From Paenibacillus sp. FSL A5-0031 (lineage in GTDB: Bacteria; Bacillota; Bacilli; Paenibacillales; Paenibacillaceae): a DNA stretch of 64,000 nt. Position numbers and translations under genes: made by a program. The notes below the pieces were generated by a model. It saw only the letters and a list, made by a program, of their open reading frames with translations, did not search any database and was not told where the DNA came from. The stretch covers positions 1 to 64,000 of the forward strand of contig NZ_MRTD01000003.1 of assembly GCF_001956295.1 (NCBI RefSeq). Reading direction: 5' to 3'. The first letter of the stretch is position 1, and the number at the start of each line of letters is the position of its first letter. This document shows positions 38,266-54,879 of this stretch, one piece after another.

Positions 38266-38943
38266 ATGAAAAAGATTTTACTTATTGAGGACGAAAGAAA
38301 TTTAGCGCGTTTTATTGAGCTTGAGCTGCGTCATGAATCGTTTGAGACAGTTGTTTCTTATGATGGCAATAGTGGATTGGAGCGCGCCTTGCGAGAAGAG
38401 TGGGATGTTATTTTATTGGATCTTATGCTGCCTGGTATGGACGGACTAGAGGTTTGCAGGCGTATTCGTGAATCAAAAGCAACACCTATTCTTATGCTGA
38501 CAGCGAGAGACAGCGTTACGGACCGAGTATCTGGCCTTGATAGCGGTGCGGACGATTATATCCCGAAACCGTTTGCGATTGAAGAGCTGCTTGCACGTCT
38601 ACGCGTTGTATTTAGGAGACAGGATATGCTTGCATCAGATCAGCGTTCCATTTTGTCTTCAGGTGAGTTAAGTGTTGATTTAGACGCTAGAATCGTTAGC
38701 AGAGGCGAACTAATCATAGAGTTGACTAAGCGGGAATATGGATTGCTGCTTGCTTTCATGCAAAATCCGAATCGTGTGTTCTCACGCGAAACGCTGCTTG
38801 ATACCGTATGGGGTTACGATGCGGCTGTCGATACGAATGTTGTTGATGTATATGTGAGATATTTGCGCAATAAGATTGATGTCCCTGGAGGAACGAGCTG
38901 CATTCAGACGCTGCGCGGTATTGGGTATGTGATGAAAAAATGA
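38266..38943 (+). CDS. OmpR-family response regulator
   Basis: 225 residues from ATG 38266; the in-frame extension upstream has no ribosome site. Receiver with Asp52 (VILLDLMLPGMDG) and Lys in YIPKPF, followed by the winged HTH (LTKREYGLLLAFMQNPNRVF, VDVYVRYLRNKID). Overlaps the kinase gene by 4 bp. Resembles ArlR/YkoG-type regulators. Confidence 0.92.
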   Translation: MKKILLIEDERNLARFIELELRHESFETVVSYDGNSGLERALREEWDVILLDLMLPGMDGLEVCRRIRESKATPILMLTARDSVTDRVSGLDSGADDYIPKPFAIEELLARLRVVFRRQDMLASDQRSILSSGELSVDLDARIVSRGELIIELTKREYGLLLAFMQNPNRVFSRETLLDTVWGYDAAVDTNVVDVYVRYLRNKIDVPGGTSCIQTLRGIGYVMKK

Positions 38944-40355
38944 ATAATTCGCGCGTAAGTTTCTCACGCATACCGATCAAGTGGAAGCTGACATTATGGT
39001 CGGCGCTGCTGCTATTTCTGCTATTTGCTGCTTATAACGCTGTTCAATATATGTTTGTAGAGAAGTGGATGAAGAAACAAGCAGAGACGACTACACAGGA
39101 AGATATGCGGGAAGTATTAAACTATTTGCTGGAAAAGGAGTTCACTTTCGACGAATCGGAACTGAGCTCGATCAGAGGTTTTCTTGAGAAAGTAAATGGT
39201 AAAAATCAGCTGATTCGCGTGCTTGATGAAGATGGAGCACCGATCATAATTGTCTCTGATAATCTAACAGAGCAGTGGTTAAATGCTTATCCTTCTTCGA
39301 GTTTAGCTGACAAAGGGTCGTGGTTTCTTGACCAAAACCTGCTGCTTATGCGCAGCCCTTTAACGATCTTCTCGTTTAACGGAACAATCGAAATTGTGAA
39401 AAACATTGAGGATTTTGAGAAGCTTAGTTCAGCTTTTTTTCGAATTATGTTAATTTGCTGTGTCGGTGCCATTGTTATTAGCGGCATCGGCGGAGGATTG
39501 CTGGCTCGTCAGCTGCTTAAGCCGCTTCAAGCGATGAATGTTGCCATGACCGGCGTAAAGCAGAAGGGCTTACAAGAAAGGGTTCAGCTAAACGAAAATA
39601 AAAATGATGAAATTGCAACGCTCATGAAGCTGTTTAATGAAATGATGGATCAGCTTGAGCGCTCGTTCGGGCAACAGAAACAATTTGTAGAGGATGCTTC
39701 TCATGAATTAAGAACGCCAATCGCCATTATTGAAGGTCATCTCGCACTGCTGCAGCGCTGGGGAAAGGATGACCCTGCAGTTCTGGAAGAGTCTTTGCAA
39801 GCTTCGTCGCAGGAAATTGCTCGACTGAAAGGACTTGTACAGGAGCTGCTCGCATTGTCACGTGCGGAGAAAGAGCCGACTTACGGAGATGAGATGAGCA
39901 GCCATTCGAAGCAGAAGATGGAACAGCTTATTAGAAATATAGAGGTGCTTCATCCGGAGTTCACTTTTCAAGCTGATTTGAGTCTTTTGTCAGACGTAGA
40001 TCTATTTGTGTCTGAGCAGCATCTGGAGCAAATTATGCTCATCTTACTCGATAATGCAGTCAACTATTCGGGAGAAAGCCGAAAAATAGAGTTATGCTGC
40101 TTGCTAGGGGAAACGGATGTTGTCATACAAGTCACGGATTTTGGCGTAGGCATATCCGATCAGGATTTACCGCTCGTTATGAATCGTTTTTACCGGGCAG
40201 ACCGTTCGAGGAGCGGCACAAGCGGCGGTCATGGACTCGGGCTGTCGATTGCGAACCGTTTGGTGCAACGATATGACGGTAGTTTGCTTATTGAAAGTAA
40301 ACTTCATCAAGGTACAACCGTTTCAGCTATTTTTAAACGAGCTGCCCGAAAATGA
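38940..40355 (+). CDS. sensor histidine kinase, ArlS/YkoH-like
   Basis: 471 residues. Two transmembrane helices (about 15-38 and 165-187) enclose an extracytoplasmic sensor domain; HAMP follows. HisKA box FVEDASHELRTPIAIIEGH with phospho-acceptor His255; ATPase N box LDNAVNYS, G1 DFGVGI and G2 GGHGLGLSI. Forms a two-component system with the regulator encoded immediately upstream. The next operon is iron transport with its own Fur box, so a link to iron is not shown. Confidence 0.92.
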   Translation: MNNSRVSFSRIPIKWKLTLWSALLLFLLFAAYNAVQYMFVEKWMKKQAETTTQEDMREVLNYLLEKEFTFDESELSSIRGFLEKVNGKNQLIRVLDEDGAPIIIVSDNLTEQWLNAYPSSSLADKGSWFLDQNLLLMRSPLTIFSFNGTIEIVKNIEDFEKLSSAFFRIMLICCVGAIVISGIGGGLLARQLLKPLQAMNVAMTGVKQKGLQERVQLNENKNDEIATLMKLFNEMMDQLERSFGQQKQFVEDASHELRTPIAIIEGHLALLQRWGKDDPAVLEESLQASSQEIARLKGLVQELLALSRAEKEPTYGDEMSSHSKQKMEQLIRNIEVLHPEFTFQADLSLLSDVDLFVSEQHLEQIMLILLDNAVNYSGESRKIELCCLLGETDVVIQVTDFGVGISDQDLPLVMNRFYRADRSRSGTSGGHGLGLSIANRLVQRYDGSLLIESKLHQGTTVSAIFKRAARK

Positions 40356-40376
40356 ATGTCGGGTAGCTTTTTTTTA
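40340..40376 (+). terminator. terminator overlapping the kinase stop codon
   Basis: AGCTGCCCGA (40340-40349) pairs with TCGGGTAGCT (40359-40368), followed by eight T. The left arm is inside the coding end of the kinase gene. Confidence 0.85.
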
Positions 40377-40430
40377 TTTTCACAGCATTTTCTCATTTTA
40401 GTCGGTTACAATAGGAACTGTTGAGTTGGT

Positions 40431-40449
40431 GGTAATGATTTTCATTATC
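40431..40449 (+). promoter_or_regulatory. Fur box
   Basis: GGTAATGATTTTCATTATC matches 17 of 19 positions of the Fur consensus GATAATGATWATCATTATC. It lies 34 bp before the start of the iron-binding protein gene and downstream of a TACAAT -10 (40407-40412). Repression under iron sufficiency is expected. Confidence 0.85.
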
Positions 40450-40482
40450 AAATTAAAAGAGAGAATGAGAGGTATGACCAAG

Positions 40483-41622
40483 ATGAAAAAGGATTATATC
40501 GTAAGTGTCGTATTGTTAACGATGCTGACAGTGCTCGTATTAGCAGGTTGTGGAGCGAATAATGCAGGAAACGATAAGACGAATGCTTCTTCGCCATCGC
40601 CAGAGGCGAGCCCAGCAACGACTGAAGCGGCTGGTGGAAGTAATGATACGAGTAAGAATAACGGCAAAGAGCAAGTCGTAAACGTGTTTACCGCAAGACA
40701 TTACGATGTTGACAGCCAGTTGTTTGATGCCTTTACGAAAGAAACAGGCATTAAAGTCAATGAAATTAAAGGTACGGCAGAAGAGCTCGTTGAACGTTTG
40801 AAGCGAGAAGGAGAAAGCTCAGAAGCAGATCTGTTCATTACAGTAGATGGCGGCGTTCTAAATTATGCGAAGCAAAATGATGTGCTTCAGCCGATTCAAT
40901 CCACAACGGTTGATAGCAATGTACCCGCAGAGCTGCGGGATAACGAGAACAATTGGGTTGGTATTGCAACCCGTGCACGAGTTATCGTTTATGCCAAAGA
41001 TCGTGTAAAGCCGGAGCAGCTATCCACCTATGAAGATCTTGCAAGTGCTGCATGGAAAGGGAAAGTATTGGCGCGCTCGTCTGCCAGCCTTTACAATCAG
41101 TCGCTGCTTGCTTCATTCATCGAACTAAATGGAGAGCAAAAAGCTGAAGAATGGGCGAAGGGGATTGTAGCAAACTTTGCTCGTGATCCTGAAGGCGGAG
41201 ATCGCGACCAAGCGAAAGCGGTCGTTGCTGGTCTAGGTGATGTTGCGATTATGAATACTTATTACGTTGGGCAAATGTTGAATTCGAAGGATGCGGAAGA
41301 GGTTAAGGTTGCTGAGAAAATTGGCGTATTCTTCCCGAACCAAGAAACGACAGGCACACATCTTAACATCAGCGGCGTAGGCCTTACTAAGCACGCTAAG
41401 AATAAAGATAACGCTGTTAAACTGATCGAATTCATGACAGGCAAGGATGGGCAAACGCTGTTAACGCAAGGAAGCTTCGAATTTCCTGTAAATGCTGCTG
41501 CAGAAAAGCCTGAGTTGTTAAAGGGCTGGGGTGACTTTAAAACACAGAAGCTGGATTTCTCCAAGCTGGGCGATCATAACAAAAAAGCAGTCGAGCTTCT
41601 GGCTAAGGTAGGCTGGAAATAA
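40483..41622 (+). CDS. Fe(III) ABC transporter substrate-binding lipoprotein
   Basis: 379 residues from ATG 40483, with GAGAGG 10 bp upstream. Lipobox LVLAGC (Cys23) and a Ser/Pro/Thr-rich linker precede a ferric-binding-protein domain of the FbpA/FutA type (VVNVFTARHYDVDSQLFDAF, LERLKREGESSEADLFITVDGG, NTYYVGQML with the metal-ligand Tyr pair). Fur box upstream and a permease and ATPase downstream complete the system. Confidence 0.92.
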   Translation: MKKDYIVSVVLLTMLTVLVLAGCGANNAGNDKTNASSPSPEASPATTEAAGGSNDTSKNNGKEQVVNVFTARHYDVDSQLFDAFTKETGIKVNEIKGTAEELVERLKREGESSEADLFITVDGGVLNYAKQNDVLQPIQSTTVDSNVPAELRDNENNWVGIATRARVIVYAKDRVKPEQLSTYEDLASAAWKGKVLARSSASLYNQSLLASFIELNGEQKAEEWAKGIVANFARDPEGGDRDQAKAVVAGLGDVAIMNTYYVGQMLNSKDAEEVKVAEKIGVFFPNQETTGTHLNISGVGLTKHAKNKDNAVKLIEFMTGKDGQTLLTQGSFEFPVNAAAEKPELLKGWGDFKTQKLDFSKLGDHNKKAVELLAKVGWK

Positions 41623-41624
41623 TA

Positions 41625-43280
41625 ATGATGGCTTCCATCTCTTTGCGAAATTTAAAGAGAATATTGAACGGCTGGGTTATATTGAGCGTAATAGGGGCCA
41701 TCATGGCCCTTATTCCGTCTCTTTATATTTTTTTCGGTTTGTTTGACAAACCGAATGAAAACTGGAAGCAAATCAAAGAGTATATGCTGTTTGATTCTGT
41801 CGTTCAATCTTTCTATCTTGTAGTAGGATCGGTGTTTTTCTCCGTCGTCATCGGCGTGTCGCTTGCATGGCTTGTTGCAGCCTATGATTTCCCGATGCGG
41901 AAGTTTTTTCACTTTGCATTTTTGCTGCCACTGGCTATTCCTCCATATATTGCAGCTTATACTTACGGTTCTATGCTGAGCTATACGGGCAGCATACAAG
42001 TTTTTATGCGAAATACGCTCGGCGTAACCCCTAACCAAGCTTATTTTGATATATTGTCCATGAAAGGCGCTATTTTCATATTTTCAATGTTTTTATTTCC
42101 TTACATTTATTTGATGACCAAAACCTTTATGGAGAAGCAAAGCGCAGCTTTCATAGAAAACGCAAGATTGCTCGGCAAAGGGCAGCTTCATATTTTTTTT
42201 CGAATCGTATTGCCTTTGTCGCAGGCTGCAATTATCGGCGGAGCCAGCCTCGTCGCATTTGAGGTACTGAATGATTTTGGAGTAACCAAACATTTTGGCA
42301 TTGCTTCGTTTACTGCAACAATTTTCAAAACATGGTTTGGTATGTATGACGTTGATTCTGCCCTGAGATTATCTGCACTCCTAATGAGCGCTATTATTGG
42401 TTTGTTTATTATGGAGAGACTGCTTCGCAGGCGAAAAATGTATCATTCCGCGACAAGCAAGCTCAATCCGCTTAAACGAAGGAAGTTATCCTATTTAGGA
42501 TCAGCTGCTGCTATTTTTGTGAGCACGGTTATATTTGCCCTTTCGTTCGCTATTCCAGTAATTCAGCTCCTCGTTTGGGCGACATGGACATATCAAGATG
42601 TTTTGAACAGCAAATTTACGCAGCTCGTCTCCAACACGCTTTTGGTTTCCATTGTTGCGATTACCGTGTTGATGGTGCTTGCTGTTATTGCCGCCAATGT
42701 AAGCCGCAGCCTGAATCGGTCGCTTTTGTCGCTTGCAGCAACGAAGCTAATTTTAATGGGCTACTCTATCCCGGGTGCTGTTTTGTCCATTGGCGTGCTT
42801 GCTTTGTTTATTTCCCTAGACCATCAATTAAGCGGCGTCTATTCATGGTTAGGCTTTGGATCGAGCAAGCTCGTGCTCAGCATGTCGCTCGTGATGCTTA
42901 TTTTCGCCTATGTAATCCGCTTCCTTGGTGTAGGATTTAATGCGGTGGAAGCGGGATTTGATAAAATAGGCAATCGTTATTCTGAAGCTTCCAGAACGCT
43001 CGGCAAAGGAATGACTGCGACTTTCTTCAAAGTGGATTTACCTTTAATAAAAGGCTCCATATTAGCAGGCTTCCTGCTTACCTTTATGGAAATGATGAAG
43101 GAGCTGCCGCTGACGCTGCTGCTGCGCCCGTTTAATTTTGAGACGCTAGCGACAAAAGCCTATCAATATGCAAGCGATGAGCAAATTCATCAAGCTTCGG
43201 TACCGTCTTTATTCATAATCACGGTGGGCATGGCAACTGTTTTTGTTTATCATTGGTTGGGAGAGAAGAAATCCAGATGA
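41625..43280 (+). CDS. Fe(III) ABC transporter permease, two fused permease domains
   Basis: 551 residues with about twelve transmembrane helices, that is two six-helix permease units in tandem as in FbpB. Two EAA-type loops are visible: FIENARLLGKGQLHIFFRIV and YSEASRTLGKGMTATFFKVD. Starts two bases after the binding-protein stop, so translation is coupled. Its stop overlaps the ATPase start as ATGA. Confidence 0.92.
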   Translation: MMASISLRNLKRILNGWVILSVIGAIMALIPSLYIFFGLFDKPNENWKQIKEYMLFDSVVQSFYLVVGSVFFSVVIGVSLAWLVAAYDFPMRKFFHFAFLLPLAIPPYIAAYTYGSMLSYTGSIQVFMRNTLGVTPNQAYFDILSMKGAIFIFSMFLFPYIYLMTKTFMEKQSAAFIENARLLGKGQLHIFFRIVLPLSQAAIIGGASLVAFEVLNDFGVTKHFGIASFTATIFKTWFGMYDVDSALRLSALLMSAIIGLFIMERLLRRRKMYHSATSKLNPLKRRKLSYLGSAAAIFVSTVIFALSFAIPVIQLLVWATWTYQDVLNSKFTQLVSNTLLVSIVAITVLMVLAVIAANVSRSLNRSLLSLAATKLILMGYSIPGAVLSIGVLALFISLDHQLSGVYSWLGFGSSKLVLSMSLVMLIFAYVIRFLGVGFNAVEAGFDKIGNRYSEASRTLGKGMTATFFKVDLPLIKGSILAGFLLTFMEMMKELPLTLLLRPFNFETLATKAYQYASDEQIHQASVPSLFIITVGMATVFVYHWLGEKKSR

Positions 43281-43942
43281 ACTTTTTTGAGCTGACTAAC
43301 GTTTCTTTTAGCTATGATAATGGGAAAAAGAGTGTATTAGAAAATTTTACGATGCAAATGCAGAAGGGTGAAGTGGTTGGAGTGCTTGGTCACAGCGGTT
43401 GCGGGAAAAGCACGCTGCTGCGGATTATAGCCGGGCTTGAGATTCCTGCCTCGGGACGTATTGCCGCTGGCGGCAGGGTTTTAGTGGATGATCAGCAGTT
43501 TATTCAGCCTGAGCAGCGCGGCATAGGCATGGTGTTTCAGGATTATGCGTTGTTTCCTCATCTGACTGTCGGTCAAAATATATTATTTGGTTTACATCGA
43601 TTATCGAGAAAAGATAGATTCATACGGCTGGATGAAATGCTGGAGCTGATACAGTTAAATGATTTCGTTAAGCGTTATCCGCATGAGCTTAGCGGCGGTC
43701 AGCAGCAGCGTGTTGCTTTTGCTCGTGCGCTTGCCCCGTCTCCCTTGATGCTGTTGATGGATGAGCCATTTAGCAGTTTGGATGCACACTTAAAGCAAAG
43801 CATTCGGGAGGAGCTGAAGCGATTGCTTCACAAAGCCCAAATTACTTGTATGTTCGTCACCCATGATCAAGAGGATGCAGCTGCTATTTGCGATCGAATC
43901 ATTCAAATCCCATATAGACAAACCCCAGCAATCCCGATATGA
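43277..43942 (+). CDS. Fe(III) ABC transporter ATPase, short form
   Basis: 221 residues from ATG 43277 (GGGAGAG upstream). Walker A GHSGCGKST, Q loop MVFQDYALFPH, signature LSGGQQQRVAFARAL, Walker B LMLLMDEPFSSLD and H-loop FVTHDQEDA are intact. It ends about 15 residues after the H loop and lacks the C-terminal TOBE/regulatory domain that FbpC and other CUT-type ATPases carry (about 340 residues). Catalytically it should work. Confidence 0.9.
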   Translation: MNFFELTNVSFSYDNGKKSVLENFTMQMQKGEVVGVLGHSGCGKSTLLRIIAGLEIPASGRIAAGGRVLVDDQQFIQPEQRGIGMVFQDYALFPHLTVGQNILFGLHRLSRKDRFIRLDEMLELIQLNDFVKRYPHELSGGQQQRVAFARALAPSPLMLLMDEPFSSLDAHLKQSIREELKRLLHKAQITCMFVTHDQEDAAAICDRIIQIPYRQTPAIPI

Positions 43943-43970
43943 TTGATTAAATAATCGCATAATTGAATAG

Positions 43971-44144
43971 AGAAGGTGCAAACAAAACCATGCTTTTGTT
44001 TGCTTAATAGGGAAGTCCGGTTCAATGCCGGCGCGGTCCCGCCACTGTATGTGAAGAGTGATTCTCTGCAAATGCCACTGTCCAATTCAAGGATGGGAAG
44101 GTGTGAGAATCGCGTTGACGCACGAGCCAGGAAACCTGCCTTTT
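43971..44144 (+). ncRNA. cobalamin (adenosylcobalamin-type) riboswitch
   Basis: Contains the conserved core AATAGGGAA (about 43995) and CGCGGTCCCGCCACTGT (44032-44048), the second core ATGCCACTG with GGGAAGG, and the B12 box GAGCCAGGAAACCTGCC (44124-44140). AGAAGG (43971-43976) can pair with CCTTTT (44139-44144) to close the outer P1 stem. It is followed by a terminator at 44255 and then by the DUF4430-ECF operon, so it should switch that operon off when cobalamin is bound. It begins only 28 bp after the iron ATPase gene. Confidence 0.93.
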
Positions 44145-44254
44145 TTATTTTGTTTCTCATTCTTCGGGGGTAAAGAATGTGGAGGCGTAATCGTTTTGCA
44201 GGACGCATCATATATTTTAGTTATATACGGTTGCTATTCTTACATTCGACATGC

Positions 44255-44286
44255 AGATCCCCTAATAGAAGGGGGTCTTTTTTTTA
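44255..44286 (+). terminator. riboswitch-controlled terminator
   Basis: Nine-base-pair stem AGATCCCCT / AGGGGGTCT (one G-T pair) with a 6-nt loop and an eight-T tail, in the leader between the cobalamin aptamer and the first gene. The position fits transcriptional attenuation; the antiterminator could not be worked out by eye. Confidence 0.8.
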
Positions 44287-44333
44287 TTGTTAAGGTTTGT
44301 GTGAATGAGACAAAAAGGAGTAGAAAAGAGACG

Positions 44334-45107
44334 ATGGCAAAGATCTGCAAGAAATGGTTACCAAGCTTAATGATCCTATGGCTGGTTATTGGTTTATTAG
44401 CTGGCTGTGCCAGTCCGGCACAGAGCGTTAATTCCAATACCAATCAAGTACAAACCAGCAACGAAGGACAAGTGGGGCAAGAAGCGGATAAAGCCGCTGA
44501 CGAGCAGCCAACGAGTACTTCAGCAGCAGAAACGGCAGAGGCAACGCAGATACCTAGCGAAGATAAAGATCAAGATAAAGCGAAGGCAACTGACAACGCT
44601 GGCGATAAGCAAGTTACGGCTTCCCCGAAGCCGAAGCAGACAAATGAGCCGAAATTGGATGATCCAAAAACGGAGCCTACAGCTTCTGCGAAACCAAACA
44701 AAACAGACAGTGTGGCTACTGCGAAGCCCGTCACGCCTGTTGCAACGCCGAATCCTGTGCAGACGGTTACGATTTCAATTGTCGCGGACAAAGATACGGG
44801 AACGGTGCTTGCACCAACAGCCGTAGAGTTCAAGAAGGATGATACCGTTCTAGATGTATTGAAGAAAATTACGAGAAAAAACAAAATACAAATGGAATAC
44901 AGAGGTGTTAAAGGCGGCGCTTATATCGAAGGCATCGATAATATCTACGAATTCGATTTGGGCGCGAAAAGCGGCTGGATGTACCGAGTAAACGGTGAGT
45001 TTCCTAACAAGGGCGCCGGGGTTTACAAGGTTAATGAAGGCGATGTTATTGAATGGTTGTATACGACTGATCTTGGCGAGGATATAGGAGCAAAATTCGA
45101 TGAATAG
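44334..45107 (+). CDS. DUF4430 lipoprotein, candidate cobalamin-binding surface protein
   Basis: 257 residues from ATG 44334; AAGGAG lies 13 bp upstream and AAAGAG nearer. Lipobox LLAGC (Cys at about 24). Residues about 30-145 are a low-complexity linker rich in Lys, Gln, Thr, Ala and Pro. The C-terminal ~110 residues are a DUF4430 domain (VLDVLKKITRKNKI, KSGWMYRVNGEFPNKGAGVY, DVIEWLYTTDLGEDIG), the fold shared with the C-terminal domain of transcobalamin/intrinsic factor. First gene after a cobalamin riboswitch and overlapping ecfT by 8 bp, so a role in capturing cobalamin outside the membrane is likely (inference). Confidence 0.87.
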   Translation: MAKICKKWLPSLMILWLVIGLLAGCASPAQSVNSNTNQVQTSNEGQVGQEADKAADEQPTSTSAAETAEATQIPSEDKDQDKAKATDNAGDKQVTASPKPKQTNEPKLDDPKTEPTASAKPNKTDSVATAKPVTPVATPNPVQTVTISIVADKDTGTVLAPTAVEFKKDDTVLDVLKKITRKNKIQMEYRGVKGGAYIEGIDNIYEFDLGAKSGWMYRVNGEFPNKGAGVYKVNEGDVIEWLYTTDLGEDIGAKFDE

Positions 45108-45969
45108 TGCGTTCGGTTCGGTACATCCGGTTACGAGCTTCAGTTATTATACAGGAGTCATTACATTCGGCATGCTCTTATTTCATCCTGTTTTTTTATT
45201 GACGTCACTTGCTGCGATTACGGTTATTATTGTCATTCATGGCGAAGGGAAGCGGCTGCTTAAGCTGCTTCCTTATTATGTTCTAATGGGCGGTTTGGTT
45301 GCTGTTCTTAACCCGCTGTTTTCTCATCGCGGGCGGCATATTTTATTTTATTTTATGGATCAGCCGATCACGTTGGAAGCTATTTTATATGGTGTGACGA
45401 TGATGCTCTCTTTATTGTGTATTTTACTTGCCTTTGTATCGTTTCAACAGATTGTTACGACGGAGAAATGGATGTATTTATTTTCACGAGTCGCTCCGCG
45501 AACTGCACTGCTAACCTCGATGTCGATTCGGTTCGTACCGCTTTTCTTGCGGAGACTGGATCAAATTACTACGGTTCAACGAATAAAAGGGGTTTCGATT
45601 CTCGAAGGCAGCTTAAAAAAACGGAGCAAGGACGGCATGCTGCTCGTTCGTGTGCTGTTGACCTGGTCCTTGGAGGAGGCGCTTCAGACCGCTGATTCTA
45701 TGAAAGCTAGAGGGTATGGCGCAGCTAAACGAAGCTCTTATGTCATCTATCGTATGGATCGTAGAGATTGGTATGTTCTTTTGTTTCTTGGAGCAATGGC
45801 ACTAGTATGCATTTGGGGCTGGATGCAAGGTTTTGGTGTGCTTACTATTTACCCGCGTCTGGAAACAATGCAGTTTCATAGGGGGGAAGGCATTGCATAC
45901 GCTTGCTATTGCGCCTTTCTTTTAACACCAGTCCTACTTGAAGAAATGGAGAGAAGGTCATGGAAGTAA
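45100..45969 (+). CDS. ecfT: ECF transporter transmembrane component (EcfT)
   Basis: 289 residues, five or so transmembrane helices and the long cytoplasmic coupling region. The coupling motif ending MKARGYGAAKRS contains the Ala-Arg-Gly signature that docks on the ATPases; RIKGVSILEG is the upstream helix. Overlaps the DUF4430 gene by 8 bp and the ATPase gene by 10 bp. Being encoded with its own S component implies a dedicated (group I-type) ECF system. Confidence 0.9.
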   Translation: MNSAFGSVHPVTSFSYYTGVITFGMLLFHPVFLLTSLAAITVIIVIHGEGKRLLKLLPYYVLMGGLVAVLNPLFSHRGRHILFYFMDQPITLEAILYGVTMMLSLLCILLAFVSFQQIVTTEKWMYLFSRVAPRTALLTSMSIRFVPLFLRRLDQITTVQRIKGVSILEGSLKKRSKDGMLLVRVLLTWSLEEALQTADSMKARGYGAAKRSSYVIYRMDRRDWYVLLFLGAMALVCIWGWMQGFGVLTIYPRLETMQFHRGEGIAYACYCAFLLTPVLLEEMERRSWK

Positions 45970-47609
45970 TTCAGGTTGATCAATTGACGTTCCATTATCC
46001 GGAATCAACGGTTGCAGCACTCGATAACATTACTTTAAATATCAAGCCAGGCGATTTTGTCGTTCTTTGCGGAGCATCCGGCTGCGGCAAAACGACGCTG
46101 CTTCGGCACTTGAAAAAAGAAACGCAGCCTACGGGGAAACGCTCAGGCACCATTAAGTATAATCGTGTATTGCTAGAGGAGCTGCCAGCGGTCGAAGCGG
46201 CAGAGCAGATCGGCATGGTATTTCAAAACCCTGAAAATCAAATTGTGATGGATCAGGTTTGGCATGAGCTGGCATTTTCCATGGAAAATGTCGGTTATGG
46301 GCAAGCGGTTATGCGTAAAAGACTAGCCGAAATGAGCCATTTCTTTGGGCTGGATGAGCTCATTAACAAATCCGTTCATGAAATATCGGGGGGACAGAAA
46401 CAGCTGATCAATCTTGCTTCAGTATTGCTGCTGCAGCCAAAGCTGCTTCTATTAGATGAGCCCACCTCGCAGCTTGATCCGGTAGCGGCGCGAGATTTTC
46501 TGCAGTTTATTTATCGACTAAATCAGGAAATGTCGATGACGGTTATTATAAGCGAGCATCGGCTGGAGGATGTTATTCCACTTGCAGATCGAATCATTAT
46601 GCTGGAGGAAGGCAAAGTGAAATACGACGCGCCGCCGAGGGAGCTATGCCGGCTCGTTGGTGCTGATGCAGCGCAAAAAGATATGCCATACCTGCCTTCC
46701 GTTACGAAGCTGTTTCTATCTACCCAGAAGGCTGGTGCCCTACCAGAAGCAAATCAAATTCCGCTAACCGTGCGTGAAGGGAAGAAGTGGCTCTCCAATG
46801 TTTTCGGCGTACATACAATAGGCGCAAATCATTCAGTAATCAACGAAAGCAGCGAGCTCGAAAAAAAGGAATGGCTGCTTGCTTGTGATGAAATAACGTT
46901 TAAATACGAAAAAGCGAGTACAGAGGTGTTGAAGAAGCTGTCGCTTAACGTTTACAAGCATGAGTTTTTGGCGGTGCTCGGCGGCAACGGGGCTGGAAAA
47001 ACTACGATGCTGCAAATGATGGCCGGATTATTAAAGCCGCAGCGAGGCAAGCTGAAGCGGGATAAATCGGTTAATGTCGGTTATTTGGCGCAAAATCCAC
47101 TGCTTTATTTTAGCTACGATACAGTTGAAGAAGAGCTTCAGCGGATGGCGGATTACGCCAAACTCGATGATCGGGATCGGAAAATAGCTCAGGTTGTCGA
47201 TTCCCTGCAAATTTCCTCTATTTTGCCGAAGCATCCTTATGATTTGAGCGGAGGAGAGCAGCAGAGAGCGGCGCTCGCGTTAGTGCTGCTTGGTGAGCCG
47301 GATGTTCTATGCTTGGATGAGCCGACAAAGGGGCTAGATCCCATAGCCAAGCAGCGAACAGCGGAGCTGCTGCAGCAGTTATGCCAAGCTGGCAAAACCA
47401 TTGTCATGGTCACGCATGATATTGAATTTGCTGCCGAGCATGCAACGCGCTGCGCGATGCTGTTTGATGGAGCAATATCTGCTGAGGCGGAGCCGGCACA
47501 ATTTTTTGGCACTAATTATTTTTACACAACAGCCATCAATCGAACGGTACGGGAATGGCTGCCAGAAGCGCTGACGACAGAGGATGTGATTGCAACGTGG
47601 GCAAAATAA
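45960..47609 (+). CDS. ECF transporter ATPase, two fused ABC domains (EcfA-EcfA')
   Basis: 549 residues. Domain 1: Walker A GASGCGKTT, signature EISGGQKQLI, Walker B LLLLDEPTSQLD. Domain 2: Walker A GGNGAGKTT, signature DLSGGEQQRA, Walker B VLCLDEPTKGLD. This joins the two ATPases of an ECF module in one chain. The stop lies inside the next gene, whose GTG start is 12 bp upstream of it. Confidence 0.92.
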   Translation: MEVIQVDQLTFHYPESTVAALDNITLNIKPGDFVVLCGASGCGKTTLLRHLKKETQPTGKRSGTIKYNRVLLEELPAVEAAEQIGMVFQNPENQIVMDQVWHELAFSMENVGYGQAVMRKRLAEMSHFFGLDELINKSVHEISGGQKQLINLASVLLLQPKLLLLDEPTSQLDPVAARDFLQFIYRLNQEMSMTVIISEHRLEDVIPLADRIIMLEEGKVKYDAPPRELCRLVGADAAQKDMPYLPSVTKLFLSTQKAGALPEANQIPLTVREGKKWLSNVFGVHTIGANHSVINESSELEKKEWLLACDEITFKYEKASTEVLKKLSLNVYKHEFLAVLGGNGAGKTTMLQMMAGLLKPQRGKLKRDKSVNVGYLAQNPLLYFSYDTVEEELQRMADYAKLDDRDRKIAQVVDSLQISSILPKHPYDLSGGEQQRAALALVLLGEPDVLCLDEPTKGLDPIAKQRTAELLQQLCQAGKTIVMVTHDIEFAAEHATRCAMLFDGAISAEAEPAQFFGTNYFYTTAINRTVREWLPEALTTEDVIATWAK

Positions 47610-48283
47610 AGCTCTGGTTCATAGCCAGCATTGGATTGTTCATCGCAGCTATGGCTTTATCCTCTGCCATTACCGATGATCATTACTTAATGCTAAGTAT
47701 CGTGTTGCTATTTGTCACGATGATTCCTTTTTTTGCAAGGTTTGAGAGACGGAAGATCGAAGCGCGCGAGATTGTTATCCTTGCTGTGCTGGCGGCCATT
47801 GCGGCCATCAGCCGCGTACCGTTTGCGCCGCTGCCGAGCGTTCAGCCCACATCCTTCGTCATCATTATTGCTGCGATTGTGTTTGGAGCTGAATCGGGCT
47901 TCATTATCGGCGCAATAGCTGCAGTCGTATCGAATATCTTTCTAGGTCAAGGCCCGTGGACACCGTGGCAAATGTTTTGCTGGGGGATGATCGGGGCTAG
48001 TGCTGGTTGGCTGCGGCATACTTGGCTCATTAAGACGAAGACCGGCTTGCTCATATTTGGTTTTGGATGGGGCTTCTTGTTTGGCTGGATTATGAATATT
48101 TGGTTTATCATCGGATTGCCGGACGCGCTGAGCTGGAATTTGATTTTTGTTGCCTACATTCAAAGCTTTTATTTTGATCTAGCGCATGCGCTGTCCAATG
48201 TTTTTTTCCTCGCCGTATTTGGGAGCAGCTGGATTGCCATTTTGCAGCGCTTCAAGAGGAAATACGGTTTATTGGAATCATAG
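47597..48283 (+). CDS. ECF transporter S component, probable cobalamin-specific
   Basis: 228 residues from GTG 47597, overlapping the ATPase gene. About six transmembrane helices with the S-component pattern VILAVLAAIAAISRVPF, FVIIIAAIVFGAESGF and LGQGPWTPWQMFCWGMIGAS. Proteins of this kind (CblT/CbrT-like) are associated with B12 riboswitches. It would bind the vitamin in the membrane; specificity is inferred from the riboswitch and DUF4430 partner, not from binding residues. Confidence 0.87.
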   Translation: MGKIKLWFIASIGLFIAAMALSSAITDDHYLMLSIVLLFVTMIPFFARFERRKIEAREIVILAVLAAIAAISRVPFAPLPSVQPTSFVIIIAAIVFGAESGFIIGAIAAVVSNIFLGQGPWTPWQMFCWGMIGASAGWLRHTWLIKTKTGLLIFGFGWGFLFGWIMNIWFIIGLPDALSWNLIFVAYIQSFYFDLAHALSNVFFLAVFGSSWIAILQRFKRKYGLLES

Positions 48284-48385: not shown

Positions 48386-49030
48386 ATGATGGATGATACA
48401 GAACCTCTTGCTGCCAAACCATGCGCCATTTGCAAGGAAACGAAACCGCTCTCTGAGTTTCTGCGGCGAACGGGCAAACGAGCCGGCGCTGGTGCAAGGC
48501 GCGGTGCATGCCGAGCTTGCAGGCAAGCGAAAGCGGCTTTAGCTCCATTGCCTGATGTTCAACTTAATGATTATAAAGCAATACGAAGAAAAGCTCATCC
48601 CAGCAAACCATTCCCGGTTCCACCGATGACATCCATAACGCTGCCGAATGATCCGGCAGCACTAAAGCCTACGCGTCAAGGTACGATTTGGATGAGAGGC
48701 AAGACGGATAAAGGACGGCGCTGGTATCAAGAAATTGAGCCAGAGCTTGCGATAACGCTGGTAAAGGAGCATGCTGCGGTTATCGTCAATCGCCATACGA
48801 TACGCCGATTGTTCAGCAATAAGGAATTCCGGCGCTACATCTTGGAGCGTGACCATCACATTTGTTATTTTTGCGGGGAGCAGGGGGATACGATCGATCA
48901 CATGCTGCCGCGCGCTAAAGGCGGGCATACAACGCCGGATAATTGCGTTTGTGCTTGCAATGCTTGCAACCAATCGAAGGCTGATCAAGACTTGCAAACG
49001 TTTATGAACGGTGATGAGCTTATTCCTTAG
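48386..49030 (+). CDS. HNH endonuclease domain protein with N-terminal Cys motif
   Basis: 214 residues. The N-terminal CAICKETKPLSEF...CRACRQAK is a four-Cys zinc-binding motif. A basic linker leads to an HNH nuclease: CYFCGEQGDTIDHMLPRAKG with CxxC, then the Asp-His and Asn-rich NCVCACNACNQSK. The final metal-binding Cys pair is complete, so the domain looks intact. No toxin, phage or restriction partner is adjacent. ATG 48386 has only a weak ribosome site; ATG 48389 is equally possible. Role unknown. Confidence 0.85.
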   Translation: MMDDTEPLAAKPCAICKETKPLSEFLRRTGKRAGAGARRGACRACRQAKAALAPLPDVQLNDYKAIRRKAHPSKPFPVPPMTSITLPNDPAALKPTRQGTIWMRGKTDKGRRWYQEIEPELAITLVKEHAAVIVNRHTIRRLFSNKEFRRYILERDHHICYFCGEQGDTIDHMLPRAKGGHTTPDNCVCACNACNQSKADQDLQTFMNGDELIP

Positions 49031-49152: not shown

Positions 49153-51171
49153 TTAGATGCCTGCACTTGAAGCAAATAATTTAGCGAAACGGTTTAAAAT
49201 CGCAGCAGCTTCCTTATGGAGCAGCGGATCTCTCGAACGGAAATCTGTACCTTTATCTGTTGATTTTATTTCTGGTCCATATAAACGAGCTCCAACAATG
49301 AATTGAACCGCTTCTTCGGCCCAAGCTGAAGTCTTGCCGCTCAGCTTCGCTGGAATGGGAGGGAAACCAAGAAAACGTGATAATCGATAGATAATGACAG
49401 CAGCTTCTTCCCTTGTAATCGATCGGTCAGGTTCAAACCTCTGGGCTGAAGTACCGCTTAATACGTGAATCTCTAGCAATGTTTGAATTTCTGATTCATA
49501 TGGATGAGCCTTTAAATCCGTGAATTTAGAGGGTTGGTGTGATTTAGTAATACCTGCTAGTCGTACAATCTGAGCTGCGAATTGAGCACGAGTCGTTTTT
49601 CCTTCTGGTTCGAAAAGGGTAGATGTTGGATTCAAAACCCCGCCCAAATCACGTAAAGTATAAATGTCATCGGCATACGGATGATTGCGCGGTACATCTG
49701 AATAGGTAGGTGATGGGGTTATACGTTCACACCAAGCATCAATTAGCAAATAATAAAAGTATGAGATATTGCCAGCTTCATCTTTTTTAAATGCGCCAAG
49801 TTTTCCATCTTCATCTTGGAACAGCAGCTCGCCAACGGGTTTTAGTTTCCTGGTGCTATTGGGTCCGGCAACGGATAAATAACCATCTTCCGCCTTTACT
49901 TTGTAATAAACGAGCGGGGCGCGCAAATACTGGTAGCTGCCTTCAAAGCGTGCTAATTGTGCCTTGGTTAGTGCAATGGCAGGCCGCTCTTTCTCTGTTT
50001 GAGGGTAATAATGATCCATAAACGCGGCGAACAGCTGCTCACGTATATCGCTGGCATCGCTGTTCGTAACAACAAATCCGCCTACCTTTTGTTCCGGCAG
50101 CAGCCACATCCACGAATGATAGCCCTCCAAATCTCCGCCCTTTCCAATGACAGTCTCGCCATTAAAATGTTCTTGGAAAAACATCTCAAAACCTAAAGCC
50201 ATGTTCGGAATTTCTGAATGAATGCCAACCTGTACCCGCTGCATCTCCTTAACTGTATTTTCCTGCAAAATACGATTTTCACCAAGCTTGCCGCCGTTTA
50301 ACTGAGCGAGCATAAATTTGCTCATATCCGTGCCAGTTGCGAACATGCCCCCGTCTGGCGCTATTGTAGGCGTGAGCTGGTATTGCGGCCAAGGCTCCTT
50401 TAATTGGTTATAGCCGGTAGCAAGGTTTGCCAGCACTTTATCCGTCAACCGGAAATCACTGTTTGTCATTTGCAGCGGACGGAATATTTGATCATCAACG
50501 ACTTGTTCGAAAGGCTTGCCTGTCACATTTTGCACGATTAATCCTTGATAATTGAAAGCTAAATTATCATAGCGATAAGCCGCTCCCGGCTTACGCACGA
50601 TGGTAGGTAAATTCTCTTTAATATATTGTTCGAGAGGATAGTCTTTGCGGGTCGCATCTGGAGCAGTCAATACATCTGTTTTGTCGAAACCTGTTGTATG
50701 AGTCAATAAATGTCGCATCGTTAGTTTGCTGCCGGTCTCATTGGGAATCGTCACACCTTTCAAATAGGGGCTTACATCCTGATCCAAATCTATTTTGCCT
50801 TCTTCTACGAGCTGCATGACGGCTGTTGCTGTAAATACTTTGGATATGGAAGCTATTCTGAACATGGTTTTATCAGGATCAACAGGTTTCTTACTCTCCA
50901 CATCGGCATAACCATAACCTTTGTTCAGCAGTACTTTATCATTGCCCACCACTACCACTGCACTTCCAGCTAGCGAGCTCGCAACCTCAGGACGATTAAA
51001 GAACTCATCGACAAACGCCTCAACTTCCTTAGCATCCTTGGGGCCAGTTGCACCTGCTGCCTCAACGCTCCTTGCAGGAAATGAGATGGCCGAAAAGGCG
51101 ATCACTGCTGCGAGTAGGGCGGGAGCCCAAGCTTTCCTACTTTTCCTTCTTTGTTGAAACACCAACATCAT
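49153..51171 (-). CDS. surface-anchored serine hydrolase (beta-lactamase/class C fold) with SLH domains
   Basis: 672 residues from ATG 51171, which has AAGGATGG 6 bp upstream. Signal peptide ends near ARSVEAAG. Residues about 45-395 form a serine beta-lactamase-like domain: nucleophile motif ASISKVFTAT (Ser-x-x-Lys), YDNLAFNY as the Tyr-x-Asn equivalent, and GKGGDLEGYHSW. A linker of beta structure follows, then three SLH motifs (FTDLKAHPYESEIQTLLEI, FEPDRSITREEAAVIIYRLS) that bind secondary cell-wall polymer. Members act as D-Ala peptidases, esterases or beta-lactamases; which is undetermined. Confidence 0.9.
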   Translation of the reverse strand: MMLVFQQRRKSRKAWAPALLAAVIAFSAISFPARSVEAAGATGPKDAKEVEAFVDEFFNRPEVASSLAGSAVVVVGNDKVLLNKGYGYADVESKKPVDPDKTMFRIASISKVFTATAVMQLVEEGKIDLDQDVSPYLKGVTIPNETGSKLTMRHLLTHTTGFDKTDVLTAPDATRKDYPLEQYIKENLPTIVRKPGAAYRYDNLAFNYQGLIVQNVTGKPFEQVVDDQIFRPLQMTNSDFRLTDKVLANLATGYNQLKEPWPQYQLTPTIAPDGGMFATGTDMSKFMLAQLNGGKLGENRILQENTVKEMQRVQVGIHSEIPNMALGFEMFFQEHFNGETVIGKGGDLEGYHSWMWLLPEQKVGGFVVTNSDASDIREQLFAAFMDHYYPQTEKERPAIALTKAQLARFEGSYQYLRAPLVYYKVKAEDGYLSVAGPNSTRKLKPVGELLFQDEDGKLGAFKKDEAGNISYFYYLLIDAWCERITPSPTYSDVPRNHPYADDIYTLRDLGGVLNPTSTLFEPEGKTTRAQFAAQIVRLAGITKSHQPSKFTDLKAHPYESEIQTLLEIHVLSGTSAQRFEPDRSITREEAAVIIYRLSRFLGFPPIPAKLSGKTSAWAEEAVQFIVGARLYGPEIKSTDKGTDFRSRDPLLHKEAAAILNRFAKLFASSAGI

Positions 51172-51464
51172 TGATTTCCATCCTTTCAAGTAATATGTAA
51201 TTTATTTCCTCTTAACTTTAATGGAATCGCCATTTCATCAAATCAGTCATTGGTCTAATTGTTACCTAGACTTTAGTCGAAAGGGTAGGTTTTGTTTGCA
51301 AGGTTTATGAAAATTGTTATTCGTTTGAGCTAGCAAATGAGACAAAGTGCAGCATTTATACGGCCAAATTCGACAATAACAAAAGTGTTATTTGTTATTC
51401 TAAAGTTATTTATTATTTGTATTGCAAAAATAATGTTATTTATGTTATCTTCTCAATAACGAAA
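51172..51464 (+). promoter_or_regulatory. AT-rich control region and promoter of the mannanase gene
   Basis: No gene seen here. Best promoter: TTGCAA (51422-51427), 17-bp spacer, TTATCT (51445-51450). Two palindromes of the same core occur: AATAAC-N6-GTTATT (51375-51392) and GTTAT-N7-ATAAC (51444-51460), the latter spanning -10 and start point. ATAACGAA at 51456-51463 recurs before the binding-protein gene at 57994. These are candidate sites for the LacI-type regulator encoded at 56591-57595. Confidence 0.45.
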
Positions 51465-51621: not shown

Positions 51622-51654
51622 CTTCATCATTATGAATTAGAGGTGACGAATGAA

Positions 51655-54600
51655 ATGGGTTTTAACTACCGATGGGGAACACGGAAGGTTTTGTTTTATG
51701 CTTTGATCCTAACGTTTGTTATGGGTGCCATTCCTCTCTACCCTTATGTAAACGCGACTGCATCTGCTTTTAAATATGAAGCAGCAAGTGCAGAAGTAGA
51801 GGGCGCAGCACAATTTTTAACTACAACTGCAGGAGGTGACATTGAATATATTGGAAACGGTTACATTTCATTTTTCACTGGTGATCCTGGAGCTGCAACC
51901 TTTCATGTTCAAGCAGCAGCAACTGGCTTATATAAGCTGAACATTGGTTATTACTCGCCTTATGGACGGAAGGTAACGTCGCTGCTCGTAAACGGTCAGA
52001 GCAACGGGGAGATTGAGCTGCCTGCGATTGCGGATGCTGGCTCTGTCTCGGCAGAAGCTTCCGCAGGGAAAGTTATGCTGAAGCAAGGCGACAATACGAT
52101 TCGTTTTGAAAGAGGCTGGGGTTATTATGGCATTGAATACATTACACTTGAATCCGCGGATACCGTTATTGTGCCAGATACCAGCCAATATGAAGCGGAA
52201 GCGGGGATTTTGGCGGGTGGAGCAGAAATACGCTCTACTGGAAACGGCTATTCCGGCGACGGTTATGTTTTTATTCCAGGAGGATCTGTTCAGTTAAATG
52301 TATCGGCTCCTGCTGAAGGTTTTTATACACTGGAATTTGGTTACAGAGCTTCTTACGGCTTCAAAAAAACGCTAATAACCGTTAATAAAAAAGAAGCCGG
52401 GGCTTCAGGATTTGAAGTTGATCTTAATGAATCAGCTGAATTTGTTGAAATATCGGCAGGTAAGGTTTTTTTGAATGCAGGAAACAACACGATAACCTTT
52501 GATGCCAATTGGAGTTGGTATGACATTGATTATATAAAGCTCACTCCAATGCCTATCGAGAATAAAGAGCATCAGGTTCCAAAGTCGTTAATCAACCCCA
52601 ATGCAACAAGGGAAGCGCGTGCGCTCATGAATTATTTAGTTGATAACTACGGCAAAAACATCATTTCCGGCCAGCAGGAATTATCTGATGCGGAGTGGAT
52701 TTATGAAAAAACCGGCAAGCTTCCTGCGATGGTTTCCTTCGACCTTATCGACTATTCTCCTACTCGGGTAGCTCATGGTACGAAGTCAGAGGAAACAGAA
52801 AAAATGATGGAGTGGGCGGAAAGAGGCGGGATCGTATCCCTTTGCTGGCATTGGAATTCGCCAAACGGTTTAATCGATGTGCCGGGCAAAGAATGGTGGA
52901 GAGCCTTCTACACCGACTCCACAACGTTTGATGTTGAGTATGCGCTTAGTCATCCGGATTCAGAGGAGTATAAGCTGCTGCTCGGTGACATCGATGTGAT
53001 TGCCATTCAGCTGAAGCGGCTTCAGGATGCTAATATTCCTGTTCTATGGAGACCGCTGCATGAGGCAGAGGGAGGCTGGTTCTGGTGGGGCGCCAAAGGA
53101 CCAGAGTCTGCCAAGCAGCTATATCGATTGATGTATGAGCGGTTAACAAACGAGCATCAATTGAACAATTTGATTTGGGTGTGGAACTCCGTGTCATCCG
53201 ACTGGTATCCAGGAGATGATGTGGTTGATATTATTAGCACCGACATTTACAACCAAGCAGGCGATTATAGCCCAAATATTAATAAATATGATCGTCTAGT
53301 AGAGGTCGTCAAGGATCGCAAGCTTGTGGCACTTCCGGAGACCGGAACGATTCCAGATCCTGATTTGCTGCCTTTATATGGTGCAGACTGGAGCTGGTTC
53401 AGCACATGGACGGGTGATTTTATAAGAAACGGTATTTATAATACGGCCGAGCATCTTACTCATGTCTTCAACCATGAGTATGTCATTACGCTCGATGAGC
53501 TGCCGAGCAACTTGTCAACCTATGGCTTGAAAGCGCCAGAGTGGATCAATGCTGAGTTACAAGCAGCAAATGTCAATCAAACGAACGCGACCTTGTCATG
53601 GAGCGGTGCATCAAGCGAGCAGGAAATCATAAATTATTTGATTTATAAAGACGGTATTCAACTGGCTGCGGTGAATGGCTCCAGCAGCAGCTATGAGGTT
53701 AGCGGACTAGCAGCGGGTACAAAATATACGTTTAAAGTAGAAGCGGCTACACGAGATGGAGTTTGGAGCGTTGGCGGTCCGCAGATTGAAGTAACCACTT
53801 TGTCTGAGCCCATCGTTACGCCGTCTAATCCAGACACAAGCCAGCCTCCTGCAGCGGGACCTGGCGGCAAACAAACGATTCAGCTTAATAGCGCAGAGTT
53901 TGAGGCAGCTGTCGCCAAAGCTCAAAAGGGTACAATCCTTGTTACCGGGACTCCAGCAGCAGGAGCTAAGGAGGTAAAGGTCAATATTCCAGCTGAGCAA
54001 ATAGCCAAGGCTATAGACAAAGGTCTTGAGCGGATAGAAGTGAATATCGGTTATGCTGCGATTACAATTTCACTTTCCGAATTATCAAGCCATTTAAGCG
54101 GAACATCTGCAACGATTACGTTCACATTCGCTATTGTCGATCCATCCCAAATGAGCGATCTTGCCCAAGCTAAGCTTGGTGGCGCGCAGGTTTATGATTT
54201 GAATCTTGACATTGACGGAAAGAAAATAACAACATTTCATGCAGCATCTTTAAAAGTTGTTTTGAATTATTCATTGGCTACGGACGCAAATTCAAACACG
54301 ATCGTGACATACCACATCAAAGAAAACGGCGAGCTTGAGGTTGTAAAAAACAGCTATTACGATGCAACAACAAAAAAAGTTATTTTTCATCCCACGCATT
54401 TCAGTCAATATGCAGCTGCGGCAGTAGATGTTTCATTCAAGGATAAAGGCTCATCCGCAGCAAGCCAGGACGCAATCGATTATTTGGCTGCAAGAGGAAT
54501 CATACAGGGAAAAGGCAATGGTTTATTTAAGCCTCTTGACCTTGTGACAAGAGCGGAGTTTGTTCAAATCATTATTCAAGCGTTTGATTTGAATGACGAT

Positions 54601-54879
54601 GCTGCCAGCAACACATTTAACGACGTTCCGAGTGATGGCTGGTATACCAAGGCTGTTTCAACAGCTCAAAAGCTCGGGCTTATTAAAGGAAAAGAAAACG
54701 GAAGTTTTGGTCCGCGCGAAGCCATGACTAAGCAGGATGCGGCAGCAGTGTTGGAACGCGTCGCCAAGCTTATTGGAAGTACAGCGGGGAAAAGTAATGA
54801 TTCCATTTTAGCAAAGTCAGTTGTGAACCGTGAGCAAGCGGCTGAAATGGTTTCTAATTTGATGCGGTTTCTCGATTAA
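51655..54879 (+). CDS. GH26 beta-mannanase, multidomain, SLH-anchored
   Basis: 1,074 residues from ATG 51655 (AGAGG 11 bp upstream). Signal peptide, then two CBM35-like beta-sandwich modules (about 35-170 and 175-300: GWGYYGIEYITLE, NWSWYDIDYIKLT). The GH26 barrel spans about 315-630 with acid/base Glu470 (RPLHEAEGGWFWWG) and nucleophile Glu562 (LPETGTIPD). A fibronectin type III module (about 640-720), a Pro/Gly linker, an unassigned beta-rich region and two SLH motifs (FKPLDLVTRAEFVQII, FGPREAMTKQDAAAVL) follow. It cleaves beta-1,4-mannan on the cell surface. A diverged third SLH may be present before the end. Confidence 0.92.
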   Translation: MGFNYRWGTRKVLFYALILTFVMGAIPLYPYVNATASAFKYEAASAEVEGAAQFLTTTAGGDIEYIGNGYISFFTGDPGAATFHVQAAATGLYKLNIGYYSPYGRKVTSLLVNGQSNGEIELPAIADAGSVSAEASAGKVMLKQGDNTIRFERGWGYYGIEYITLESADTVIVPDTSQYEAEAGILAGGAEIRSTGNGYSGDGYVFIPGGSVQLNVSAPAEGFYTLEFGYRASYGFKKTLITVNKKEAGASGFEVDLNESAEFVEISAGKVFLNAGNNTITFDANWSWYDIDYIKLTPMPIENKEHQVPKSLINPNATREARALMNYLVDNYGKNIISGQQELSDAEWIYEKTGKLPAMVSFDLIDYSPTRVAHGTKSEETEKMMEWAERGGIVSLCWHWNSPNGLIDVPGKEWWRAFYTDSTTFDVEYALSHPDSEEYKLLLGDIDVIAIQLKRLQDANIPVLWRPLHEAEGGWFWWGAKGPESAKQLYRLMYERLTNEHQLNNLIWVWNSVSSDWYPGDDVVDIISTDIYNQAGDYSPNINKYDRLVEVVKDRKLVALPETGTIPDPDLLPLYGADWSWFSTWTGDFIRNGIYNTAEHLTHVFNHEYVITLDELPSNLSTYGLKAPEWINAELQAANVNQTNATLSWSGASSEQEIINYLIYKDGIQLAAVNGSSSSYEVSGLAAGTKYTFKVEAATRDGVWSVGGPQIEVTTLSEPIVTPSNPDTSQPPAAGPGGKQTIQLNSAEFEAAVAKAQKGTILVTGTPAAGAKEVKVNIPAEQIAKAIDKGLERIEVNIGYAAITISLSELSSHLSGTSATITFTFAIVDPSQMSDLAQAKLGGAQVYDLNLDIDGKKITTFHAASLKVVLNYSLATDANSNTIVTYHIKENGELEVVKNSYYDATTKKVIFHPTHFSQYAAAAVDVSFKDKGSSAASQDAIDYLAARGIIQGKGNGLFKPLDLVTRAEFVQIIIQAFDLNDDAASNTFNDVPSDGWYTKAVSTAQKLGLIKGKENGSFGPREAMTKQDAAAVLERVAKLIGSTAGKSNDSILAKSVVNREQAAEMVSNLMRFLD

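Follow-up and report, generated by a model that had tools for sequence, protein, structure and literature searches.

In energy-coupling factor (ECF) transporters, high-affinity binding falls to the S component itself, and a separate binding protein is usually described as unnecessary for these importers. Why, then, does an operon of Paenibacillus sp. FSL A5-0031 encode, together with a complete ECF module, a lipoprotein carrying a DUF4430 domain related to animal transcobalamin? The operon lies in a 64-kb window, the whole stretch of DNA analysed here (contig NZ_MRTD01000003.1), and is one clean unit composed of a riboswitch, a terminator and four overlapping genes (Table 1). We consider it probable that this locus is a cobalamin-repressed corrinoid importer, in which an anchored DUF4430 protein works with an ECF transporter built on a CbrT-family S component.

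The operon belongs to the B12 regulon. Its cobalamin aptamer is the only Rfam match at gathering score within the window. A preliminary description of this DNA had placed a cobalamin riboswitch and a terminator ahead of the genes; both were recovered, with the correction that the start it gave, 43971, falls 14 bases inside the aptamer. Hairpins followed by a T run occur in the region at chance level (6 in a 5-kb scan compared with 5.4 in shuffles), and the segment 44175-44300 folds at -32.3 kcal/mol, more stable than its own shuffles (z -2.5). The hairpin is the presumed expression platform of the riboswitch, predicted to be an OFF switch. Promoter-like sites in the region were below shuffle level (4 found vs 7.7). 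The genome contains three RF00174 riboswitches: the one in the window, one before a gene that we take from its sequence to be metE-like, and one on contig C3 followed by a surface protein described below. A riboswitch before metE is the usual B12-sparing arrangement.

EcfT, two ATPase domains and an S component are encoded together, and the relatives keep the same order. The preliminary description had already named EcfT, the fused EcfA-A' and the gene overlaps, all of which were borne out; its label for the S component, ‘CblT/CbrT-like’, was kept only in its second half. Compared with all PDB sequences, the S component matched CbrT of Lactobacillus delbrueckii (6fnp) with E 3.4e-15 over residues 52-224; the second and last match up to E 1 had E 0.019. 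Alignment of 23 relatives revealed 19 invariant positions, which include most of SN...G.GPWT.WQ and, near the end, F..D..HA (the D nearly invariant); 6fnp shares most letters of these motifs. By sequence, the S component is thus a member of the CbrT family, and from this kinship we predict that it binds and moves cobalamin. Its start, judged from the sequence and from relatives, is most likely the GTG at 47597 rather than the ATG at 47555 given by the mechanical list of open reading frames (ORFs). Two other identities were considered and dropped. CblT was abandoned as no CblT model appeared among the matches, none having been sought by name, and the CbrT sequence match decided. A riboflavin or other-vitamin S component was suggested by the riboflavin-type family PF07155 (40.2 bits, cut-off 26.7), found above cut-off together with the general S-component family PF12822; since PF07155 also passes for two CbrT fusions, we treat this hit as one to S components in general. 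Riboflavin and folate models of NCBIfam scored far below cut-off (22 vs 99 and 20 vs 60 bits).

Table 1. Features of the window operon and related features elsewhere (G, C and L numbers are our handles for genomes, contigs and loci; aa, amino acids)
Feature	Position	Strand	Details
Promoter-like hexamers TAGACA-17-TATGAT	43915-43943	+	consensus scan only, weak; just 5' of the aptamer
Cobalamin riboswitch aptamer RF00174	43957-44157	+	Rfam, 112.4 bits (cut-off 31.5), E 2.4e-27; model covered over its full length, 1-189
Intrinsic terminator hairpin with T tail	44255-44278	+	9-pair stem; between aptamer and first gene
Membrane-anchored lipoprotein, 257 aa	44334-45107	+	ATG start; lipobox LAGC, linker, C-terminal DUF4430 (last third)
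DUF4430 domain of the lipoprotein	~44838-45065	+	81 bits (Pfam gathering cut-off 23.8)
EcfT, transmembrane coupling component	45100-45969	+	PF02361 CbiQ, 37 bits; position kept in relatives
EcfA-EcfA' fused ATPase	45960-47609	+	PF00005 twice (two nucleotide-binding domains); TIGR04520, 336.9 bits (cut-off 315)
CbrT-family S component, 228 aa	47597-48283	+	PDB 6fnp match; GTG start inferred
Second riboswitch of the genome	G000:C66:229164-229357		before metE-like gene L004:7345-9657 (-)
Toroid-DUF4430-SLH protein, 1247 aa	L005:2352-6095		after riboswitch C3:94903-95104
CbrT-EcfA-A' fusion	L057:7137-9824		Pfam check
CbrT-EcfA-A' fusion	L079:7115-9634	-	Pfam check
CbrT-EcfA-A' fusion	L080:6746-9232

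Two variants of the transporter genes were observed among relatives. In three genomes of the family a single open frame of 828-895 aa joins CbrT to the C-terminal end of EcfA-A'. An S component tethered in this way would be unable to dissociate from its ECF module, and these fusions bear on the debate over S-component release and toppling. At two loci (L104 and L154) EcfA occupies two separate open frames; most relatives have the fused form.

The lipoprotein carries a lipobox with Cys25, from which lipidation is predicted, followed by a linker of ~135 residues enriched in A, T, P, K and D. In fold comparison, its DUF4430 domain lies nearer to the transcobalamin-type beta domain than to other beta-grasp domains, with haptocorrin as the best match; on structural modelling, it has the transcobalamin beta-domain fold, as the term ‘transcobalamin-like’ of the preliminary description implied. 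Across 47 sequences the domain is invariant at G34, Y40, E49, G53, S56-G57-W58, W84 and Y86. A sequence search with the 47 aligned domains returned no transcobalamin among matches up to E 10, and one paralogous DUF4430 domain matched haptocorrin with E 0.11. The link to animal carriers from sequence alone failed, and the fold comparison was used instead. The window lipoprotein has no toroid, and so lacks the full transcobalamin architecture of a toroid followed by a beta domain.

We then compared the anchors of single-DUF4430 proteins, with starts taken from mechanical ORFs and loci L082-L084 left out. An N-terminal hydrophobic segment precedes the linker in 45/47 proteins of the same bacterial family and in 74/76 wider members. 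A Cys in or just after this segment is present in 16/47 and 67/76, respectively; many family members have an apparently uncleaved N-terminal helix. As the segment is found in nearly all and the Cys in only 16 of the family proteins, membrane anchoring is the conserved feature and lipidation is not: the lipid anchor is replaceable. The long linker of the preliminary description was recovered. Linkers range from 89 to 341 residues, perhaps long enough for movement within the wall.

How regularly is DUF4430 associated with this transporter? The preliminary description had proposed a survey of DUF4430-ECF co-occurrence beside B12 riboswitches. Among 98 same-family genomes drawn from a larger group, CbrT was found in 49, DUF4430 in 50 (49 above cut-off) and both in 48 (hypergeometric P 2e-24, kinship uncorrected). 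CbrT occurs at 51 loci (taking two pieces in G011 as a single locus), and at 50 of them DUF4430 lies 0.9-3.1 kb upstream on the same strand; the one left over, in G073, is only a fragment of CbrT. Of the 50 CbrT-DUF4430 loci, 48 are preceded by a B12-class riboswitch; the two exceptions are L074, where the searched stretch contains no such element, and L040, which starts at the edge of a contig. A toroid protein is encoded on the same strand at 43/50. At the 17 other DUF4430 loci, a B12-class riboswitch was found upstream in 12; for the remaining five none was listed or found, and two of these five fall below the Pfam cut-off. One genus (g6; L082, L083 and L084) shows a different arrangement, with an adenosylcobalamin riboswitch, a toroid-DUF4430-SLH protein and a lone CbrT with no EcfT beside it; EcfA is absent beside CbrT in L082 and L083, and L084 has an ABC ATPase fragment ~2 kb off.

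The association extends beyond the family. A scan of named genomes, taking the best 80 of 586 confirmed places and hence biased to near relatives, covered Paenibacillus, Cohnella, Bacillus-like genera, Sporosarcina, Desulfosporosinus, Clostridium, one lactobacillus and others. DUF4430 is in the operon at 77 of these 80 loci, the other three ending at contig edges, and a same-strand toroid occurs at 71. RF00174, searched with Rfam in place of an earlier pattern proxy, was sought in 77 of the genomes (L100, L107 and L116 were left out as contig ends). A riboswitch was found upstream at 39/40 and 31/37 loci in two batches. Of the seven loci without it, four are at a contig or locus edge (L118, L140, L163 and L167; the L140 site lies downstream), L165 has a riboswitch on the opposite strand only, and the genomes of L151 and L156 gave no RF00174 match anywhere. 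Riboswitches were paired to loci by coordinate and strand, not by contig number; the DNA was then checked at 73 places, and the core motifs were present at 71, being absent at both L118 places. Three Desulfosporosinus genomes, those of L139 (G141), L160 (G162) and L144 (G146), carry 18, 20 and 13 cobalamin riboswitches, compared with 0-9 in the others in the same search.

The strongest test of the pairing came from lactobacilli. In 81 Lactobacillaceae genomes, strong CbrT matches (E under 1e-9, a cut set after viewing the list) and DUF4430 were found in exactly the same 15 genomes; weak CbrT matches (E 1e-3 to 1e-6), present in 20 of the 35 genomes with matches, were not counted. In 8 of the 15, the DUF4430 gene adjoins CbrT in the ORF list, overlapping it or separated by at most ~10 bases, and no EcfA was found in the fetched flanks of these eight loci. 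In five others the arrangement resembles that of the window, with DUF4430 2.6-3.7 kb ahead of CbrT in the same orientation; in G177 the gene is divergent, and in G217 it is 18 kb away from CbrT. Our own toroid model gave no match in the 12 lactobacillus loci analysed. RF00174 was absent in the one lactobacillus genome searched, so that the B12 link there comes from gene order alone. At the loci to which family models were applied, this order is adenosylcobalamin-dependent ribonucleotide reductase, DUF4430, CbrT and cobalamin adenosyltransferase, in full at L179 and in part at L174, L178 and L180. It corresponds to the L. delbrueckii cluster nrdJ-cbrS-cbrT-pduO (PMC5997447), and by analogy with these related lactobacilli cbrS is probably a DUF4430 gene.

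Which substrate would such a system carry? The genome has matches to CobS and to the methionine synthase activation domain, and none to CbiC. With this set of matches, the organism probably salvages corrinoids. (The activation-domain match, L173 at G000:C11:514191-514946, spans one TAG, which may reflect an alignment running past the true stop.) Among the 48 family genomes with the cassette, 13 have neither CobS nor CbiC matches, so that complete corrinoids would be needed there; CbiC is rarer with the cassette (6/48 vs 14/50), at a P of only 0.08. An ECF system for cobalt or for a non-corrinoid B12 precursor such as dimethylbenzimidazole, serving B12 synthesis, would agree with the match of EcfT to the cobalt-related CbiQ family and with the presence of CobS, through which late B12 assembly steps may exist. 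Yet the S component matches CbrT and no cobalt component, and the 13 genomes would gain little from precursors alone. With no CbiC match in the genome, cobalt would have no corrin ring to enter; this and the CbrT match led us to reject a cobalt or nickel transporter, and we hold uptake of cobalt or a precursor to be very improbable. The same low credence applies to a preference for cobinamide, or for other incomplete or analogue corrinoids, over cobalamin. The characterised CbrT does bind cobinamide (36 nM, vs 9 nM for cobalamin; PMC5997447), the closest fold match, haptocorrin, has the broader specificity among the animal carriers (PMC5599065), and CobS is again available; but the affinity order favours cobalamin, and cassette genomes lacking CobS could hardly finish cobinamide.

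The riboswitch on C3 leads to what we regard as the second half of the B12 system, beyond the window. The 1247-aa protein that follows it comprises an alpha/alpha toroid at 46-316 (detected with our own profile and not by Pfam), three DUF4430 domains (358-433, 560-635 and 961-1036) and S-layer homology (SLH) domains. It thus has, in the toroid and the first DUF4430, the full transcobalamin architecture. The next gene encodes a 514-aa toroid-SLH protein in which Pfam recognises the toroid. For a related toroid-DUF4430 protein (L101), whose DUF4430 is unreported by Pfam and was seen by our own profile and in the model, a structure was predicted (pLDDT, predicted local distance difference test, 89.7), and the fifteen best-ranked Foldseek matches to it were all transcobalamin, haptocorrin or intrinsic factor (E 1e-9 to 2e-8). 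Superposition on the animal carriers left ~20 Å root-mean-square deviation: the agreement is at the level of the domains and does not extend to how they are placed relative to each other. The isolated toroid is closer to terpene cyclases than to animal carriers, and because terpene cyclases score higher for this part, the toroid was rejected as proof of B12 binding. An unusually long array was observed at L129:414-6605, where our own profiles indicate, in 2063 aa, nine DUF4430, a toroid, a DUF4430, a toroid and SLH.

Taken together, these elements would work as follows. When B12 is scarce, the riboswitch would let transcription past the terminator, and the operon would make a lone beta domain, anchored on a flexible linker through the wall, and a dedicated ECF transporter. 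The first capture, further out, would probably be made by the S-layer-type toroid-DUF4430 protein (on C3 here, in the same operon in most relatives). The anchored DUF4430 would bind cobalamin, perhaps cobinamide, near the membrane, raise its local concentration and deliver it to CbrT, which would move the corrinoid inward as EcfA-A' hydrolyses ATP. We infer B12 binding by the window domain, the order of the relay and the hand-off to CbrT; the genes, their order, the riboswitch, the fold and the co-occurrence were directly established, and transport by a CbrT relative and B12 binding by the human beta domain are taken from the literature.

Within a corrinoid importer, DUF4430 might also bind no ligand and serve to hold the toroid protein or the transporter in position, as a structural element or a tether to the cell wall. 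Its anchor and long linker would suit such a role; L. delbrueckii ECF-CbrT needs no extra protein in vitro (PMC5997447), and other proteins of the superfamily, such as ComEA and those for polysaccharide export, have been suggested to contact polysaccharides (PMC1796856). A tether would, however, account poorly for a domain whose fold is much closer to the transcobalamin type than to other beta-grasp domains, for its invariant residues, and for its retention beside CbrT in the 12 lactobacillus loci without a toroid match; we regard it as unlikely. Because ECF-CbrT is functional by itself once purified, we think it more likely that the DUF4430 protein helps affinity or delivery when B12 is low than that the corrinoid importer strictly requires it as a subunit. 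A more elaborate form of this importer, a split-transcobalamin relay with its toroid (alpha) and DUF4430 (beta) modules on different surface proteins, can be put forward only tentatively: B12 might pass from the toroid S-layer protein to the anchored beta domain and on to CbrT through transient alpha-B12-beta sandwiches, by analogy with the separate human transcobalamin domains, which assemble only with B12. If so, animal intrinsic factor and transcobalamin would descend from a bacterial capture chain, as its fused and secreted remnant, and ECF transport would, after all, include a case with an extracytoplasmic binding protein.

Directly 5' of the riboswitch, 40474-43942 appears to encode another transporter, with the solute-binding protein, permease and ATPase of an ATP-binding cassette (ABC) importer of the iron/2-aminoethylphosphonate type. 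The first gene of the larger stretch 38940-43942 is presumably sensor kinase-like, judging from its ORF, and the genes of this stretch show no sign of membership in the B12 operon. CbrT is directly followed by a small HNH endonuclease-like gene (48386-49030; PF01844, 34 bits), then by a beta-lactamase family PF00144 protein with SLH domains (49153-51189, minus strand) and a GH26-CBM35-fn3-SLH surface enzyme (51643-54879, plus strand).

The idea of a B12-binding protein beside an ECF module, presented as a distinct design in the preliminary description, is not new. The clade was named by Burroughs et al. (2007), who described its fusions to toroids and its operons with CbiO and CbiQ, suggested that extracellular transcobalamin-like domains scavenge B12, and traced animal transcobalamin to Gram-positive bacteria (PMC1796856). 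Their SLBB proteins share with those described here an extracellular DUF4430-type domain, EcfA- and EcfT-like genes and alpha/alpha toroid partners, and a Gram-positive wall anchor is named in several members (PMC1796856). The text of that paper does not contain the words riboswitch, S component, lipoprotein, S-layer or SLH, features that are added here. A 2023 annotation, ‘Additional lipoprotein component of putative cobalamin ECF transporter’ (PMC9963975), likely designates a DUF4430 protein. In the open literature, subscription papers and bioRxiv lying outside the search, we came upon no study that had put a bacterial DUF4430 protein to an experimental test. The window operon is thus a fresh instance of a system predicted in 2007. 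The B12 regulon, the CbrT family and the beta-domain fold all hold, unlike the novelty and the conserved lipid anchor, and what is new is the identity of CbrT, the regulon evidence, the pairing with CbrT including in lactobacilli, the replaceable anchor and the split between toroid and beta domain. In the Bacillales, Clostridia and lactobacilli examined DUF4430 is rarely parted from CbrT, which suggests that B12 is an exception among ECF substrates. The origin proposed in 2007 for intrinsic factor and transcobalamin can now be tested in a defined system whose partners have names, namely a lone beta domain, the toroid proteins and a transporter with a structurally solved relative.

The closest characterised system is ECF-CbrT of L. 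delbrueckii (6fnp), which likewise combines a CbrT-family S component with EcfT and EcfA/A'; it imports cobalamin and cobinamide and works in liposomes as a purified complex (PMC5997447). There, CbrT shares a general ECF module, whereas the module of the window is dedicated, encoded in the operon and has fused ATPases. The neighbour gene cbrS was apparently outside the assays of that 2018 study, as far as its accessible text goes (PMC5997447). Transcobalamin, intrinsic factor and haptocorrin have in common with the bacterial proteins the beta-domain fold and, in the C3 protein and many relatives, the toroid-then-DUF4430 order; B12 binding has been shown for the isolated beta domain of human transcobalamin (PMC5599065). 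The animal carriers are soluble proteins with receptor-mediated uptake, in contrast to a lone beta domain anchored beside a membrane transporter, and in the bacteria toroids and beta domains may share a protein or be carried by different ones. BtuG of Bacteroides is, as proposed here for DUF4430, a surface lipoprotein that captures B12 for a membrane transporter, but it is a beta-propeller, unrelated to DUF4430, and its partner is the outer-membrane protein BtuB (PMC6143338). BtuFCD likewise relies on an extracytoplasmic binding protein to feed an ATP-driven B12 importer, and does so with different protein families.

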